From Modestobacter sp. VKM Ac-2982 (GTDB lineage Bacteria > Actinomycetota > Actinomycetes > Mycobacteriales > Geodermatophilaceae), in assembly GCF_026967935.1 (NCBI RefSeq), contig NZ_JAPVBL010000002.1, positions 62,001 through 126,000 on the forward strand: a stretch of 64,000 nt of DNA. Reading direction: 5' to 3'. The notes beneath the pieces were generated by a model. The model ran no database searches. It was not told where the DNA came from and saw only the letters and a list, made by a program, of their open reading frames with translations. Positions 11,304-15,504 of this stretch are shown piece after piece (positions within the stretch are counted from its first letter, which is position 1; each line of letters opens with the position of its first letter). The translations under genes and the position numbers were made by a program.

Positions 11304-13110
11304 GTGTTCGAGACGGGCGGGTTCGGGGTCGCGGTGACGGTGTCACTGGCCGATCCGGGGCTGCCTGCTGAGCTGGATCCGGCGCCTGCTGGGGTGACGC
11401 GGCGTCGGACGCGGTTGTCGGAGGTGGTGGCGTCGGCGCGGCTCTCCGATGCCGGGCTGGCGGGGGAGCTGCGCGCGGTGGTGGACATCGGTGCGCAGCT
11501 GGCCGCCTACGAGGCGGTCGTGGTGGCCGAGTTGGCGCGGCGTCGCCCGGTGGAGTGGGACCTGACCGAGCAGGAGCCGGGGCACGGGGTGGAGGGCTGG
11601 CGTCCGGTTCGGGTGCCGGCGGGGGTGAGTGAGTTCCCCGCCGATGAGCTGGCACTGCTGAAGGGCATGTCCCGGACGGCGGCGACCCTGTTGGCGGAGC
11701 GGTCGCTGGTGTGGGTGCACGAGCTGCCGGCGACGTGGGCGGCGTTGGCTGATTCGCTGATCGACCCGCCGCGGGCAACGGCGATCGCGAAGGCGTTGGG
11801 TGGGCAGTCGCAGGCTGCCGGTGGCCGGGTCGAGCCGGCGATCGTGGCCGAGGTGGAGGCCCAGGCGCTGGGCTGGGCGGTGGCGGGGGAGACGCCGGTG
11901 CGGTTGCAGGAACGGACGGCGGCGGCGTTGATCGCGCTGGACGATGCGGCGGCCGATCGGCGGCGGAAGAAGGCCGAGCAGTGTGCTGATGTGACCACCC
12001 GGGCCACCGCCGATGGGATGGGTCAGCTGGTGGCGGACCTGCCGATGCCGGTGGCCGCGGCCTGCCGGGAGACAGTGGACAGCTATGCGCGGATGGCGAA
12101 GGCCGAGGGCGACGGGCGGCCGATCGGGCAGCTGCGCACCCAGGTGATGGCCGATCTGATCCTGCGCCCGTGGGACACCAGCCGGGAGCCGGTGACCGCC
12201 CATCTGACGGGTCCTGGCGCCGCTGCCGGCGCTGCACACCCGCCCGTTCGACGGTCCGACCCCGCCGGGTGAGGGCCACGGCACGTCCGAAGAGGGCCAC
12301 CAGGCGCCGGGCGAGGATCTCCTTGTGTCAGGCGAGGGTCACGCCTCGGGCGAGGATCTCCTCGCACCGGGCGGGGGTCACGCGGCGGGCGAGGGCGGGC
12401 TCCCGCCGTGCGATGACCGGGACGCTGCGACGGTGGACGGGGCGCCGATCACCGCCGGGCAGCTCCGGCAACTGCTGGCCCAGCTGGACGCGATCTGCCC
12501 CGGCGGGCTGCAGGCCCCGACCGGGGGCACGCTGAACATCGACCTGGTCGATCCGGTCACCGGGGCGCTGCGGGCGACGGTGACCCGCCCGGAACTGGAG
12601 CGGCTGGCCCGCCGCGGCTGCCCCGCTCATCCCGACCGGGACTGCGGGTGCGGGGTGCTGGACCGGCCACCGCCGATCGACCGCTACACCCCGACCCCGG
12701 CCCAGGCGCGGTTCGTCCGTGCCCGGGACCGCACCTGCCGGCATCCGGGCTGCCGTCGGCCGGCCGCGCGCACCGACCTGGACCACGTCTGCGCCCACCG
12801 CGCTGGTGGGGCCACCGACTGCACCAACTTGTGCTGCTTGTGCCGGCGACACCACCGGTTGAAGACCCACGCACGCCGATGGCGGTTCGTGATGACCGCC
12901 GACGGCGCCCTGTCGGTCACCACCCCCTCCGGGGTCACCCGGACCACCCGACCACCGGGCCTCCACCTGCCCGGCCACCGAACACCGAGCTCCCGAACAC
13001 CGAGCTCGCGAACACCCGGCCGCCAGCCGCCGGGTCCCCGGCTGTCCGCCGCCGGACAGCTGACCGGAGGCGGGAGCCCACCCGACCCGGAGGACCCGCC
13101 GCCCTTCTGA
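11304..13110 (+). pseudogene. DUF222 / HNH endonuclease (13E12 repeat family), frameshifted
   Basis: Two open frames make one gene. 11304-12272 (GTG start, MFETGGFGVAVTVSL) holds the DUF222 domain. A second frame, open to 13110, holds the end of DUF222 and the HNH nuclease with a zinc-ligand pattern (CRHPGCRRPAARTDLDHV, then NLCCLCRRHHRLKTH). Around 12209-12211 the DNA reads ACGGGTCCTGGCGCC; removing one G of the GGG restores the frame through VLAPLPALHTRPFDGP and joins both parts into about 600 aa. This is therefore a one-base insertion or a sequencing error. Such proteins are abundant repeated elements in actinobacteria, of uncertain function. A Gly-rich linker and an SRTPSSRTPG-type repeat occur in the second part. 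Confidence 0.85.
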
Positions 13111-13391: not shown

Positions 13392-13685
13392 GTGATCCGT
13401 CACCACCTCGCAGCGAGTTCGCCGCGGAGCCCTCAGTGGTTCGACCCGGCGCACCAGGCCGACATCCTCGCGGCCTTCGACAGTCAGCTCGCCGCCGGGC
13501 TGCACGATCGGAAGCCGCACAGCCCGCGACCGGAACGGGTCCGCGAACTGGGCCAGCTGGCTGCGGCCAGTGCGCTCCCGGCCCGGGCGGCTCTGCTCCG
13601 CTGGGGTGCGCTGCCCGCCTCGGTCCGCGCGCACCTGCTCACCAGCTGGTACGGCAGTCAGGTCGCCAGGAGCTCCGCCGCCTGA
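13392..13685 (+). CDS. Small hypothetical protein
   Basis: 97 aa from a GTG (VIRHHLAASSPRSPQWFDP); a further in-frame GTG at 13341 exists, but the DNA before 13392 lacks the third-position G/C bias. The body reads HQADILAAFDSQLAAGLHDRKP and ALPARAALLRWGALPASVRAHLL, predicted helical and soluble. There is no family match I know. It sits alone between the HNH locus and the DyP genes and may be a cargo gene of the HNH region. Confidence 0.45.
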   Translation: MIRHHLAASSPRSPQWFDPAHQADILAAFDSQLAAGLHDRKPHSPRPERVRELGQLAAASALPARAALLRWGALPASVRAHLLTSWYGSQVARSSAA

Positions 13686-13810: not shown

Positions 13811-13951
13811 TCAGTCCCAGGGCTCCCCGCAGGTGGCGCAGCGGCCCGAGGGCAGCCGCTCGGTCAGGCGGCCGCACACCGGGCAGACCTGGTCGAGCCA
13901 GCACGCCGGGTCACCGCCCTCCGGCTCCGGCTGCTCTGGCTCCCGCGTCAC
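13811..13951 (-). CDS. 46-aa zinc-ribbon-like protein coupled to the DyP peroxidase
   Basis: 46 aa, GTG start overlapping the DyP stop by 4 nt (GTGA). The sequence contains CPVC (residues 23-26) and CATC (38-41), giving a CxxC-x11-CxxC zinc-ribbon or rubredoxin-like pattern, plus a Cys at 17 and a final EPWD. Nothing else fits in so small a protein, so it probably binds one metal ion. The overlap means it is translated together with DyP, suggesting a role linked to the peroxidase, for example metal or haem handling or a cargo tag. The function is not known, and no named family is claimed. Confidence 0.7.
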   Translation of the reverse strand: MTREPEQPEPEGGDPACWLDQVCPVCGRLTERLPSGRCATCGEPWD

Positions 13952-14880
13952 GGCGCCCGTCGGTCCTCGTCGGGGGGCGCGAACCGGGCCAGGGCGTCGA
14001 TCGACGGGCACGTGTAGTACGCCCCGCTCAGCGGGGTCAGGAAGCCGGTCAGCCCGTCGCGCACCCCGTCGGTCGCCCCGGCCATCCGGCGGAGCATCTC
14101 GGTGAGGCGCCACTGATCGCGGGCGAACCCGACGAACGCCGTCCCGTGGTCGGTGACCCCGCCGTAGGCGACGTTGCGCCGGAAGATCTGCTTCTCCTCG
14201 CCGTCCACCTCGACGGTGGTGCGGGCGACGTGCGCGCTCGGCAGCATCACGTCGTCGGGCAGCTCGACGCTGTCCGGCTTGGTCCGGCCCATCATCATCT
14301 CCTGGCCGTGCATCCCCAGCGATTCCCAGGCGGCGCTGTCGTGCCGCCACACCTGGTAGAGCACGATGCTCGCCCCCGCACCCGGCTCGCCGGCCGGCAC
14401 TGCCGCGACCTCGGCGGCGGTCAGCAGTGAGGGGTTCTCCGTGCCGTCGATGAAGCCGGTCAGGTCCCGGTCGTGCTGGTACAGCCAGCCGGTGACCTCC
14501 GCGGTCACTCGTGCAACGCCGGCGAGGGCGGCGAGCACGGCCCGGGCGTTGTCGAAGACCGCGGTGCGATCGCCCCCGGCGACCCAGATCCAGGCGTCGT
14601 GCTGGGTCGCCAGCATCCGGTAGCGGCCGGCGCCGACGAGGTCCTCGGTCCAGCTGGCGGCGTCCGCCGGGGCGTCGGCCGGGGCGACGGCGGCCCACAG
14701 CTCCGGCCGGAAGCCGACCACCAGGTTCACGCCACCGGTGGAGGAGAGCGGACCGGTGAGCCCGGCCACCCCGCGGACCAGGTCCTCCGCGGAGCAGCCG
14801 GGCTCGAGGTCGAGCTCCAGGTAGCAGTGCTCAGGGGTGCCGAGGGCGAAGATGCCCGGCTGCGTCGTCACGCCGTCCAC
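13948..14880 (-). CDS. Dye-decolorizing (DyP-type) haem peroxidase
   Basis: 310 aa. The DyP signature GFIDG is at 142-146 (catalytic Asp 145) in GFIDGTENP. The proximal haem histidine is probably His 217 (PSAHVART) and the distal Arg 234 (QIFRRNVAYGG). No twin-arginine signal is present, so it is a cytoplasmic class-B-like (YfeX/DypB) enzyme; such enzymes are often loaded into encapsulin shells, but no encapsulin gene is in the window. It oxidises phenolics, dyes or Mn(II) with H2O2. The C-terminal end (DEDRRAP) lacks an obvious encapsulin targeting tail. The next gene is the coupled mini zinc ribbon. Confidence 0.92.
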   Translation of the reverse strand: MDGVTTQPGIFALGTPEHCYLELDLEPGCSAEDLVRGVAGLTGPLSSTGGVNLVVGFRPELWAAVAPADAPADAASWTEDLVGAGRYRMLATQHDAWIWVAGGDRTAVFDNARAVLAALAGVARVTAEVTGWLYQHDRDLTGFIDGTENPSLLTAAEVAAVPAGEPGAGASIVLYQVWRHDSAAWESLGMHGQEMMMGRTKPDSVELPDDVMLPSAHVARTTVEVDGEEKQIFRRNVAYGGVTDHGTAFVGFARDQWRLTEMLRRMAGATDGVRDGLTGFLTPLSGAYYTCPSIDALARFAPPDEDRRAP

Positions 14881-14896: not shown

Positions 14897-15289
14897 TCAG
14901 CTGGTCGGCGGCTCGTCCTTGCCGGCCTCCTCGAGCGCGTCGGCCTCCTCCTTGGTCTTGTGCACCGCCTTGTCGGCGTGCTCCGGCGGGCCGTAAACCG
15001 TGTAGAGCACCAGCGGGTTCACCCCGGTGTTGAGGAAGTTGTGCTTCTTGCCGGCGGGGACGACGACGAGGTCACCCTGGGCGACGTTCTTCTTCTGCCC
15101 GCCGACGACGGCCTGGCCGGTGCCGCTGACGAAGGTGAGGATCTGGTCGATGTCCTCGTGCACCTCCTCGCCGATCTCCCCACCCGGCGGGATCGTCATG
15201 ATCACCAGCTGGGTGTGCTCGCCGGTCCACAGCACCCGACGGAAGTCGGCGCTCTCCTCGGCGACGGTGGCGATGGTGAAGTGCTCCAT
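14897..15289 (-). CDS. Small cupin-domain protein
   Basis: 130 aa. A single cupin barrel is shown by the motif GGEIGEEVHEDIDQILTFVSGTG (metal-ligand HxD/E region) and the second motif GDLVVVPAGKKHNFLNTG. Metal-binding histidine positions are partly conserved. Charged C-terminal tail (KTKEEADALEEAGKDEPP). Similar small cupins are of undefined function, possibly metal-dependent isomerases or binding proteins. It is on the same strand as DyP with 16 nt between (this gene is upstream), so the order cupin-DyP-zinc ribbon may be one operon. It is divergent from the universal stress gene. Confidence 0.85.
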   Translation of the reverse strand: MEHFTIATVAEESADFRRVLWTGEHTQLVIMTIPPGGEIGEEVHEDIDQILTFVSGTGQAVVGGQKKNVAQGDLVVVPAGKKHNFLNTGVNPLVLYTVYGPPEHADKAVHKTKEEADALEEAGKDEPPTS

Positions 15290-15504
15290 GGCTGCCGTTC
15301 CTCCTCGATCCAGTCGCTCCTGCCGGCGCGCGCCGGCTCATGATCAGTGAAGAGCAGAGTGGCCTCCGCCGCGATCCGAAGCCCTCGGGTCGGGCGACAC
15401 GGGGGAACAGGCCCTCCGACTCTGCCGTCGACCGGCCGGGTGGGGGAGGCTTCCCGGTGCCGGGTACCGGCGGAGCACTTGCACACGAGCACAGGAGGAC
15501 GGCG

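Follow-up and report, generated by a model that had tools for sequence, protein, structure and literature searches.

The small gene that overlaps the end of a DyP-type haem peroxidase (DyP) gene in Modestobacter sp. VKM Ac-2982 is read here as encoding a member of an uncurated family of small actinobacterial Cys4 (zinc-type) ribbon proteins, with a function that is not specific to DyP, a reading to which we give a probability of about one half. It is supported by the conservation of the ribbon, its mostly single copy, its contexts at 90 loci, and its links to MarR, ArsR-type, Rrf2 and cupin-like partners. The pairing with DyP is mostly a local context of the wider ribbon family, and this wider family is more interesting than the pair: a conserved, mostly single-copy micro-domain that reaches no Pfam or NCBIfam cut-off recurs in Actinomycetota, fused to or overlapping unrelated regulators and enzymes. 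A gene pair as striking as ribbon and DyP can be the mere local context of a broader family. In the following, the window means the whole stretch of 64,000 nucleotides that was analysed.

The Ribbon Gene and Its Product

The ribbon gene lies at 13811..13951 (-) and is translated, from a GTG start to a TGA stop, into a protein of 46 amino acids, VTREPEQPEPEGGDPACWLDQVCPVCGRLTERLPSGRCATCGEPWD. Its five cysteines are found in the segments GGDPACW, CPVCG and CATCG. The sequence-only reading had described a 46-aa protein with CPVC and CATC 11 residues apart, overlapping DyP by 4 nt; the translation agrees with this spacing, and the frame coordinates place the overlap at nt 13948-13951 (GTGA), where the GTG of the ribbon meets the TGA of DyP (13950-13948). 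The fifth Cys, in GGDPACW, had been absent from that reading, and is invariant in 31 of 31 rows of one set of ribbon relatives (A1) and in 38 of 38 rows of another (A2). A candidate Shine-Dalgarno site, GAGGAC, at 13963..13968 (-), within the 3' end of DyP (codons for ..DED..) and 11 nt before the ribbon GTG, likely serves the ribbon. No Pfam or NCBIfam model scored above its cut-off with the ribbon protein; in Pfam, Zn_ribbon_NUD reached 14.4 bits (gathering cut-off 24.8), YhfH 12.8 (27), DUF2256 12 (25) and Zn_ribbon_8 10.6 (34.4).

The ribbon is a conserved protein-coding gene. Relatives at E <= 0.001 are present in 88 of the 112 Geodermatophilaceae genomes, including the source genome, which has a single copy at that threshold. 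Across 17 Modestobacter loci, chosen after L046, L062, L066, L072, L080 and L085 had been excluded beforehand, pN/pS was 0.225 in the ribbon frame (29 codons) and 0.471 to 2.967 in the remaining five frames of the same DNA. For 61 loci of other Geodermatophilaceae genera, from which 6 loci missed by a strict pattern had been dropped, the ribbon frame gave 0.296 and the other frames 0.540 to 2.707. One reverse frame thus also lies below 1 (0.471 in Modestobacter and 0.540 in the other genera), which we read, with due caution, as an effect of codon-position alignment. That the 46-aa frame is spurious, or annotation noise, is therefore scarcely credible: although it is very short, and the same frame stays open across much of DyP (13811-14698), its relatives in 88 genomes and its low pN/pS argue against this, as do the ribbon copies that are located away from DyP. 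Conservation of the small frame, on which the sequence-only reading had staked its claim, is thus what was found.

A Ribbon Family of Actinobacteria

What we define in this analysis as the GGDPACW ribbon family has one Cys in a GGDPACW segment, followed by CxxC and CxxC about 11 residues apart, with all five Cys invariant, and the window protein belongs to it. Both A1 and A2 consist of rows chosen as ribbon relatives. The 31 rows of A1 give the consensus EGGDPACWLxRVCPACGRLAExxPPxRCxxCG with five invariant Cys, and the family pattern can also be written EGGDPACWLxRVCPxCGR..CxxCG; in the 38 rows of A2, which span several taxonomic families, one G and the same five Cys are invariant. Two ribbons (L176 and L178) start straight at MGDPACWL. 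When the phylum was searched with A1, 98 of 396 genomes gave a match at E <= 0.001, many of the weak ones spanning the knuckles alone (about positions 19-42); the latter were not counted as ribbon family, and members were taken from the first 22 rows, at E <= 1.1e-6. The search of the class with A2 gave matches at E <= 1e-6 in 36 of 394 genomes, one match per genome.

The ribbon is mostly a single-copy gene: 85 of the 88 matching Geodermatophilaceae genomes have one match each, and 21 of the 22 Modestobacter genomes with a match have a single one at E < 1e-10, the weaker extra matches covering part of the profile. The window ribbon has no match in plasmid and phage records, which rules against carriage by a mobile element. 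Among the best 80 of 184 named relatives, all are, to judge by their titles, from Actinomycetota, except one 'UNVERIFIED Bacillus' record. On these sequences, the family is best read as an uncurated, often regulator-linked, small zinc-ribbon family of actinobacteria.

The Cupin-DyP-Ribbon Block of Modestobacter

In Modestobacter, cupin, DyP and ribbon form a block that ends with the ribbon gene. In the window, the block begins with a Cupin_2 protein of 130 aa at 14897..15289 (-), which scores 59.4 bits with Pfam Cupin_2 (cut-off 27.2) and ends 16 nt before the DyP frame. The DyP gene at 13948..14880 (-) encodes 310 aa counted from the first GTG, several of its orthologues being called by our custom gene caller from VTTQPG, 4 codons after that GTG. 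It contains GFIDG, which we take to be the GxxDG motif, and its identity is confirmed by TIGR01413 (168.6 bits, cut-off 100.5) and Pfam Dyp_perox_C (131.2 bits, cut-off 20), while Dyp_perox_N, at 17.7 bits, falls under its 20.4. Comparison by eye of the sequences upstream of Modestobacter cupin-DyP pairs revealed an inverted repeat, GCCGGC-N4-GCCGGC, at 15322..15337 (-), 32 nt before the cupin ATG; it is present at some of these loci and missing at others (e.g., L094, L097, L211 and L212), and is a possible operator of the block. The encapsulin shell gene (PF04454) was not found in the source genome (0 of 1; the control search matched 3 of 14 known genomes), and DyP as an encapsulin cargo was rejected on this ground.

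Junctions between DyP and the ribbon were read directly from the DNA, and each in-frame start close to the stop was recorded. Only 2 of the 16 DyP-linked loci, the source genome (L001) and L002, have the 4-nt overlap of ribbon start and DyP stop, and the second also offers an alternative start 8 nt past the stop; in the other 14, the ribbon GTG lies 2-9 nt past it. Hence, the overlap holds for the window and is not kept among relatives: it is the close coupling of the two genes that is conserved in linked loci, and not the exact 4-nt overlap. By eye, GAGGA occurs within the last DyP codons in 15 of the 16 loci, with GAGGG in L010, and may be the ribosome-binding site of the ribbon.

Two groups of DyP orthologues do without the ribbon. 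In Modestobacter L211, L212 and L219, a cupin adjoins DyP and no ribbon stands beside them; in L220-L223, from four genomes of other genera, neither cupin nor ribbon occurs in the stretch examined. In the DyP tree, the ribbon-linked loci fall within Modestobacter and the backbone is poorly supported; a single gain of the DyP-linked ribbon in this genus is compatible with the tree, which neither shows nor excludes it.

Other features were noted near the block. A 97-aa protein without Pfam match is encoded at 13392-13685 (+), convergent with the ribbon, and its relatives stand beside the ribbon-less DyP of L212 and near the ribbon of L012. Further away, two successive frames within 11304-13110 (+), at 11304-12272 and 12325-13110, could represent a single gene interrupted by a frameshift; by eye, an HNH-like Cys/His pattern is seen in the second, which has no Pfam match at E <= 0.01. 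Three Modestobacter genomes without a DyP-linked ribbon (L046, L062 and L066) carry a different ribbon copy with a conserved divergent neighbour of 95-102 aa.

Genomic Contexts of the Ribbon in Geodermatophilaceae

The contexts of the ribbon were tallied at 90 loci from 88 genomes, a weak second match in G033 (L090) having been dropped beforehand as degenerate. The tblastn search for neighbours (E <= 1e-6) reached out to 1.5-1.6 kb and misses more distant or more divergent ones, and contig ends cut L008 on the upstream side and L072 on the downstream side. A DyP gene stands upstream of the ribbon at 16 of the 90 loci, all in Modestobacter, and is lacking at 73; the remaining one, L008, is not judgeable, since in this genome (G102) both the ribbon and the DyP gene (L202) are at contig ends. 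A MarR gene is linked to the ribbon at 16 loci in six genera, fused in frame at 9 and adjacent at 7, so that MarR equals DyP in frequency (16 versus 16 of 90) but is much less confined taxonomically. A Rieske/VanA-type gene convergent with the ribbon is present at 49 of the 90 loci, 10 of which are also MarR-linked. Pfam gave the identities of representatives of these neighbours.

Looking for the gene pair in relatives, as the sequence-only reading had proposed, therefore gave a divided answer, with tight coupling to DyP in the linked Modestobacter loci and 73 ribbons without an upstream DyP. The suggestion that the ribbon is a general partner of haem peroxidases is not supported, in view of these 73 loci and of the DyP genes without a ribbon in L211, L212, L219 and L220-L223; in the other direction, DyP as the general partner of the ribbon finds no support in the tally, with 16 loci in one genus. 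The ribbon is probably no dedicated part of the peroxidase. A narrower possibility is a ribbon dedicated to the Modestobacter DyP, as its subunit or maturation factor. This is favoured by ribbon starts that, in all 16 linked loci, fall between -4 and +9 nt from the DyP stop, by a cupin-DyP-ribbon block that is kept while the downstream neighbour varies (a TPP-enzyme-like gene in 9 loci; convergent genes of 97 aa in the window and of 96 aa in L012), and by a DyP tree compatible with one gain. Nevertheless, we consider it unlikely, in view of the 73 ribbons without upstream DyP, the three Modestobacter and four other DyP orthologues without ribbon, the occurrence of the cupin-DyP pair without it, and the fusion of the ribbon to unrelated proteins elsewhere. 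Several observations also count against our main reading: tight coupling in 16 of 16 loci is what a DyP-specific role would give as well, DyP is as frequent a neighbour as MarR, the convergent Rieske gene stands alone, without MarR, at 39 of the 90 loci, and 19 loci, including L008 at its contig end, have none of DyP, MarR and Rieske.

The MarR Link and the Neighbouring Lipoprotein

For all seven adjacent MarR genes, which are of two MarR types, a ribbon start is available that gives a 4-nt overlap (ATGA or GTGA), and three of the seven loci also offer later in-frame starts; among the fusions, MarR was confirmed by Pfam for two representatives. A palindrome, TGTTGC-N6-GCAACA, precedes the type-1 MarR gene in exact form at 9 of 13 loci (e.g., L032:2756-2773). 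Genome-wide, it was searched for in seven of the eight genomes with a fused type-1 MarR (all but G058) and in the source genome: in six of the seven it is the sole exact genomic copy, and the seventh has none. Because the sole exact palindrome precedes MarR in six of seven genomes, MarR and ribbon look like a self-contained unit, which is probably autoregulated via this candidate operator. In the window, 4 sites resemble TGTTGC-N6-GCAACA, each differing from it at 2 positions; 0.89 would be expected, and as many as 4 turned up in 2 of 100 shuffles. None of these sites is near the DyP block, and a MarR operator in the window was rejected accordingly. The one exact copy of the source genome is inside a coding gene on a different contig. 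In the AlphaFold2 model of a MarR-ribbon fusion, the MarR part is confident, the linker at 138-158 has a pLDDT below 50 and the ribbon is at about 65, so that the ribbon is probably tethered flexibly to MarR. Such fusions make the function of the ribbon testable in cis.

At 23 of the 90 loci, e.g., L087 and L280:883-1452 (-), a PCu(A)C-like lipoprotein gene is divergent from MarR-ribbon or from a lone ribbon and shares the intergenic region with it. Of four such proteins scanned, two pass the Pfam PCu(A)C cut-off of 29.4 bits (30.2 and 32.8) and two fall short of it (27.9 and 28.2). The His/Met copper motif, sought as a regular expression in the form we presume it to have, is absent from 23 of 23, and a link to copper homeostasis failed on this point, which also counts against our main reading. 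As side observations, a conserved element like CCGCAACAnAGTTGTCGCAT was seen by eye, with variants, before the MarR-less ribbons of L064, L067, L069, L079, L081, L083 and L087, and L039 has an apparent remnant of the MarR leader before its ribbon.

These regulatory neighbours bear on another possibility, namely that the ribbon is a small protein that buffers metal with its thiolates or serves in stress (Zrd- or metallothionein-like), made under a metal- or redox-responsive regulator, with the fifth Cys taking part in zinc release or a thiol switch. Five invariant Cys within about 35 residues, the coupling to MarR, ArsR-type and Rrf2 regulators, and the published precedent of Zrd, described in the accessible part of PMC12301328 as induced by Zn/Cd via CadR, speak for it. 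The single metal site expected here would make a poor buffer, Zrd having two ribbons by that description, and the copper motif is missing from the PCu(A)C-like lipoprotein nearby; on balance, we regard a buffering role as rather improbable.

Partners outside Geodermatophilaceae

Gene starts and neighbours outside this family, as also at the DyP loci without ribbon, come from a simple custom codon-usage caller, as distinct from a published gene finder. In Streptomyces and Nocardiopsis, the ribbon comes after a cupin-like domain, with Pfam below cut-off or silent for the two that were scanned. A ribbon-DUF309 fusion (L134), a DUF488-ribbon fusion (L150) and a ribbon-FAD oxidase fusion (L189) each have one Pfam-confirmed representative, further fusion examples having been identified by eye. 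The ribbon also overlaps a DUF488 gene by 4 nt in L242, a PAC2 gene by 4 nt in L269, an ArsR-type HTH gene by 8 nt in L148 and a downstream Rrf2 gene by 4 nt in L180, and an aldehyde dehydrogenase gene lies upstream of it in L178. So wide a spread of partners suggests that the ribbon module is portable, and since DUF309, DUF488, PAC2, FAD oxidase and aldehyde dehydrogenase differ so widely, no single pathway unifies them, a further point against our main reading.

Putative Metal Site and Fold

It is the Cys pattern that points to zinc as the putative metal of the ribbon. AlphaFold2 gave a mean pLDDT of 80.4 for a 43-aa ribbon, and Foldseek returned no match of this model in the PDB at E <= 0.001; rubredoxin chains appear among the matches listed with non-significant E values of 2.1-3.0. 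The Cys pairs of rubredoxins are more than 20 residues apart. With a knuckle spacing of 11 and such Foldseek values, the ribbon was not identified as a rubredoxin. There is a likeness to the ribbons of rubrerythrin (E 0.0097), which is outscored by zinc finger proteins (2i13 Aart, E 7.8e-5; 1mey consensus zinc finger, E 0.0016); these likenesses, in which no stretch passes alone, are weak. The window ribbon was not listed for the rubrerythrin-like domain NF033497 at E <= 1, and its relative L178 reached 19.9 bits where the cut-off is 32, so that membership in this domain family was rejected.

On such likenesses one might conceive of the ribbon as an electron carrier with a rubredoxin-like Fe(Cys)4 site, supplying DyP, flavohaemoglobin or oxygenases with electrons. 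The CPxCG knuckles, the weak rubrerythrin likeness (including the NF033497 score of L178), a gene downstream of the ribbon in L046 whose product combines globin, FAD and NAD domains, and the convergent Rieske gene at 49 of 90 loci are in keeping with this idea. The idea is nonetheless quite improbable, as the knuckle spacing is too short for rubredoxin, the NF033497 score is below its cut-off while the zinc fingers 2i13 and 1mey score better, Foldseek found nothing at E <= 0.001, Rieske gene and ribbon lie on opposite strands, and the fusions to MarR, DUF309 and DUF488 point away from electron transfer.

A Possible Role of the Ribbon

Under our main reading of a ribbon whose function is not DyP-specific, the four knuckle Cys would bind a single metal ion, with zinc the likeliest candidate, and the acidic, Pro-rich N-terminus would form a flexible lead into the GGDPACW segment. 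The ribbon may then be a small interaction or regulatory accessory, acting in trans when alone and flexibly tethered when fused, and its synthesis would be coupled to that of a regulator or enzyme that responds to stress or to a ligand. In Modestobacter, the ribbon could be translated by reinitiation on the cupin-DyP message, and would be made under the same conditions as DyP, which it need not touch.

A more speculative extension, to which we attach little probability, is that one-component regulation in actinobacteria uses the GGDPACW ribbon as a portable module for output or sensing: about 35 residues, mostly single-copy, joined to each lineage's own sensor or regulator (MarR, ArsR-type, Rrf2 or cupin), with the fifth Cys as a thiol/metal switch. 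In Modestobacter, what such a module senses or signals from its place in the operon would be the state of the cupin-DyP peroxide pathway.

Comparison with Known Systems

Among the matches listed in a search of the open-licence literature, no description of the DyP-ribbon pair, the ribbon motif or the MarR-ribbon fusion was found. Some MarR-family proteins have a strand-swapped zinc ribbon (PMC5906684), which, from the part of that paper available, we take to be an arrangement different from the MarR-ribbon fusion. Cupin accessory genes have been reported in mycobacterial DyP encapsulin operons (family 1); the accessible description of these operons includes no ribbon accessory gene (PMC8346489), and the cupin accessory is common to both systems, whereas the source genome has no encapsulin gene. 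The rubrerythrin-like ribbon NF033497 resembles the present one in being a single Cys4 ribbon, with the weak profile match of L178.

The accessible part of PMC2253796 defines small CPxCG-related zinc finger proteins for archaea and mentions them in bacteria too. The ribbon shares the sequence features of this definition: a length below 100 aa, a distance of 7-40 residues between two Cys/His pairs, and at least one CPxCG-like motif. One of these, Brz of Halobacterium salinarum, is encoded directly upstream of bop, and its regulatory role has been tested (PMC2253796, same part). The ribbon resembles Brz in having fewer than 100 aa, two Cys pairs, a CPxCG-like motif and a small gene adjoining the relevant operon, but differs from it in GGDPACW and the fifth Cys, in its Actinomycetota hosts, and in its fusions and coupling; the two are likened by description and not by homology. 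Another parallel is Zrd, a small zinc-ribbon protein of Pseudomonas aeruginosa, which, in the accessible part of PMC12301328, shares with the ribbon its small size, its former lack of annotation, a predicted disordered N-terminus and control by a one-component regulator. Zrd is likewise compared by description rather than by homology: it has two CXXC-N10-CXXC ribbons and CadR, a regulator of the MerR family, in contrast to the GGDPACW ribbon family, which has one C-x2-C-x11-C-x2-C ribbon and, in some genera, MarR-type neighbours.
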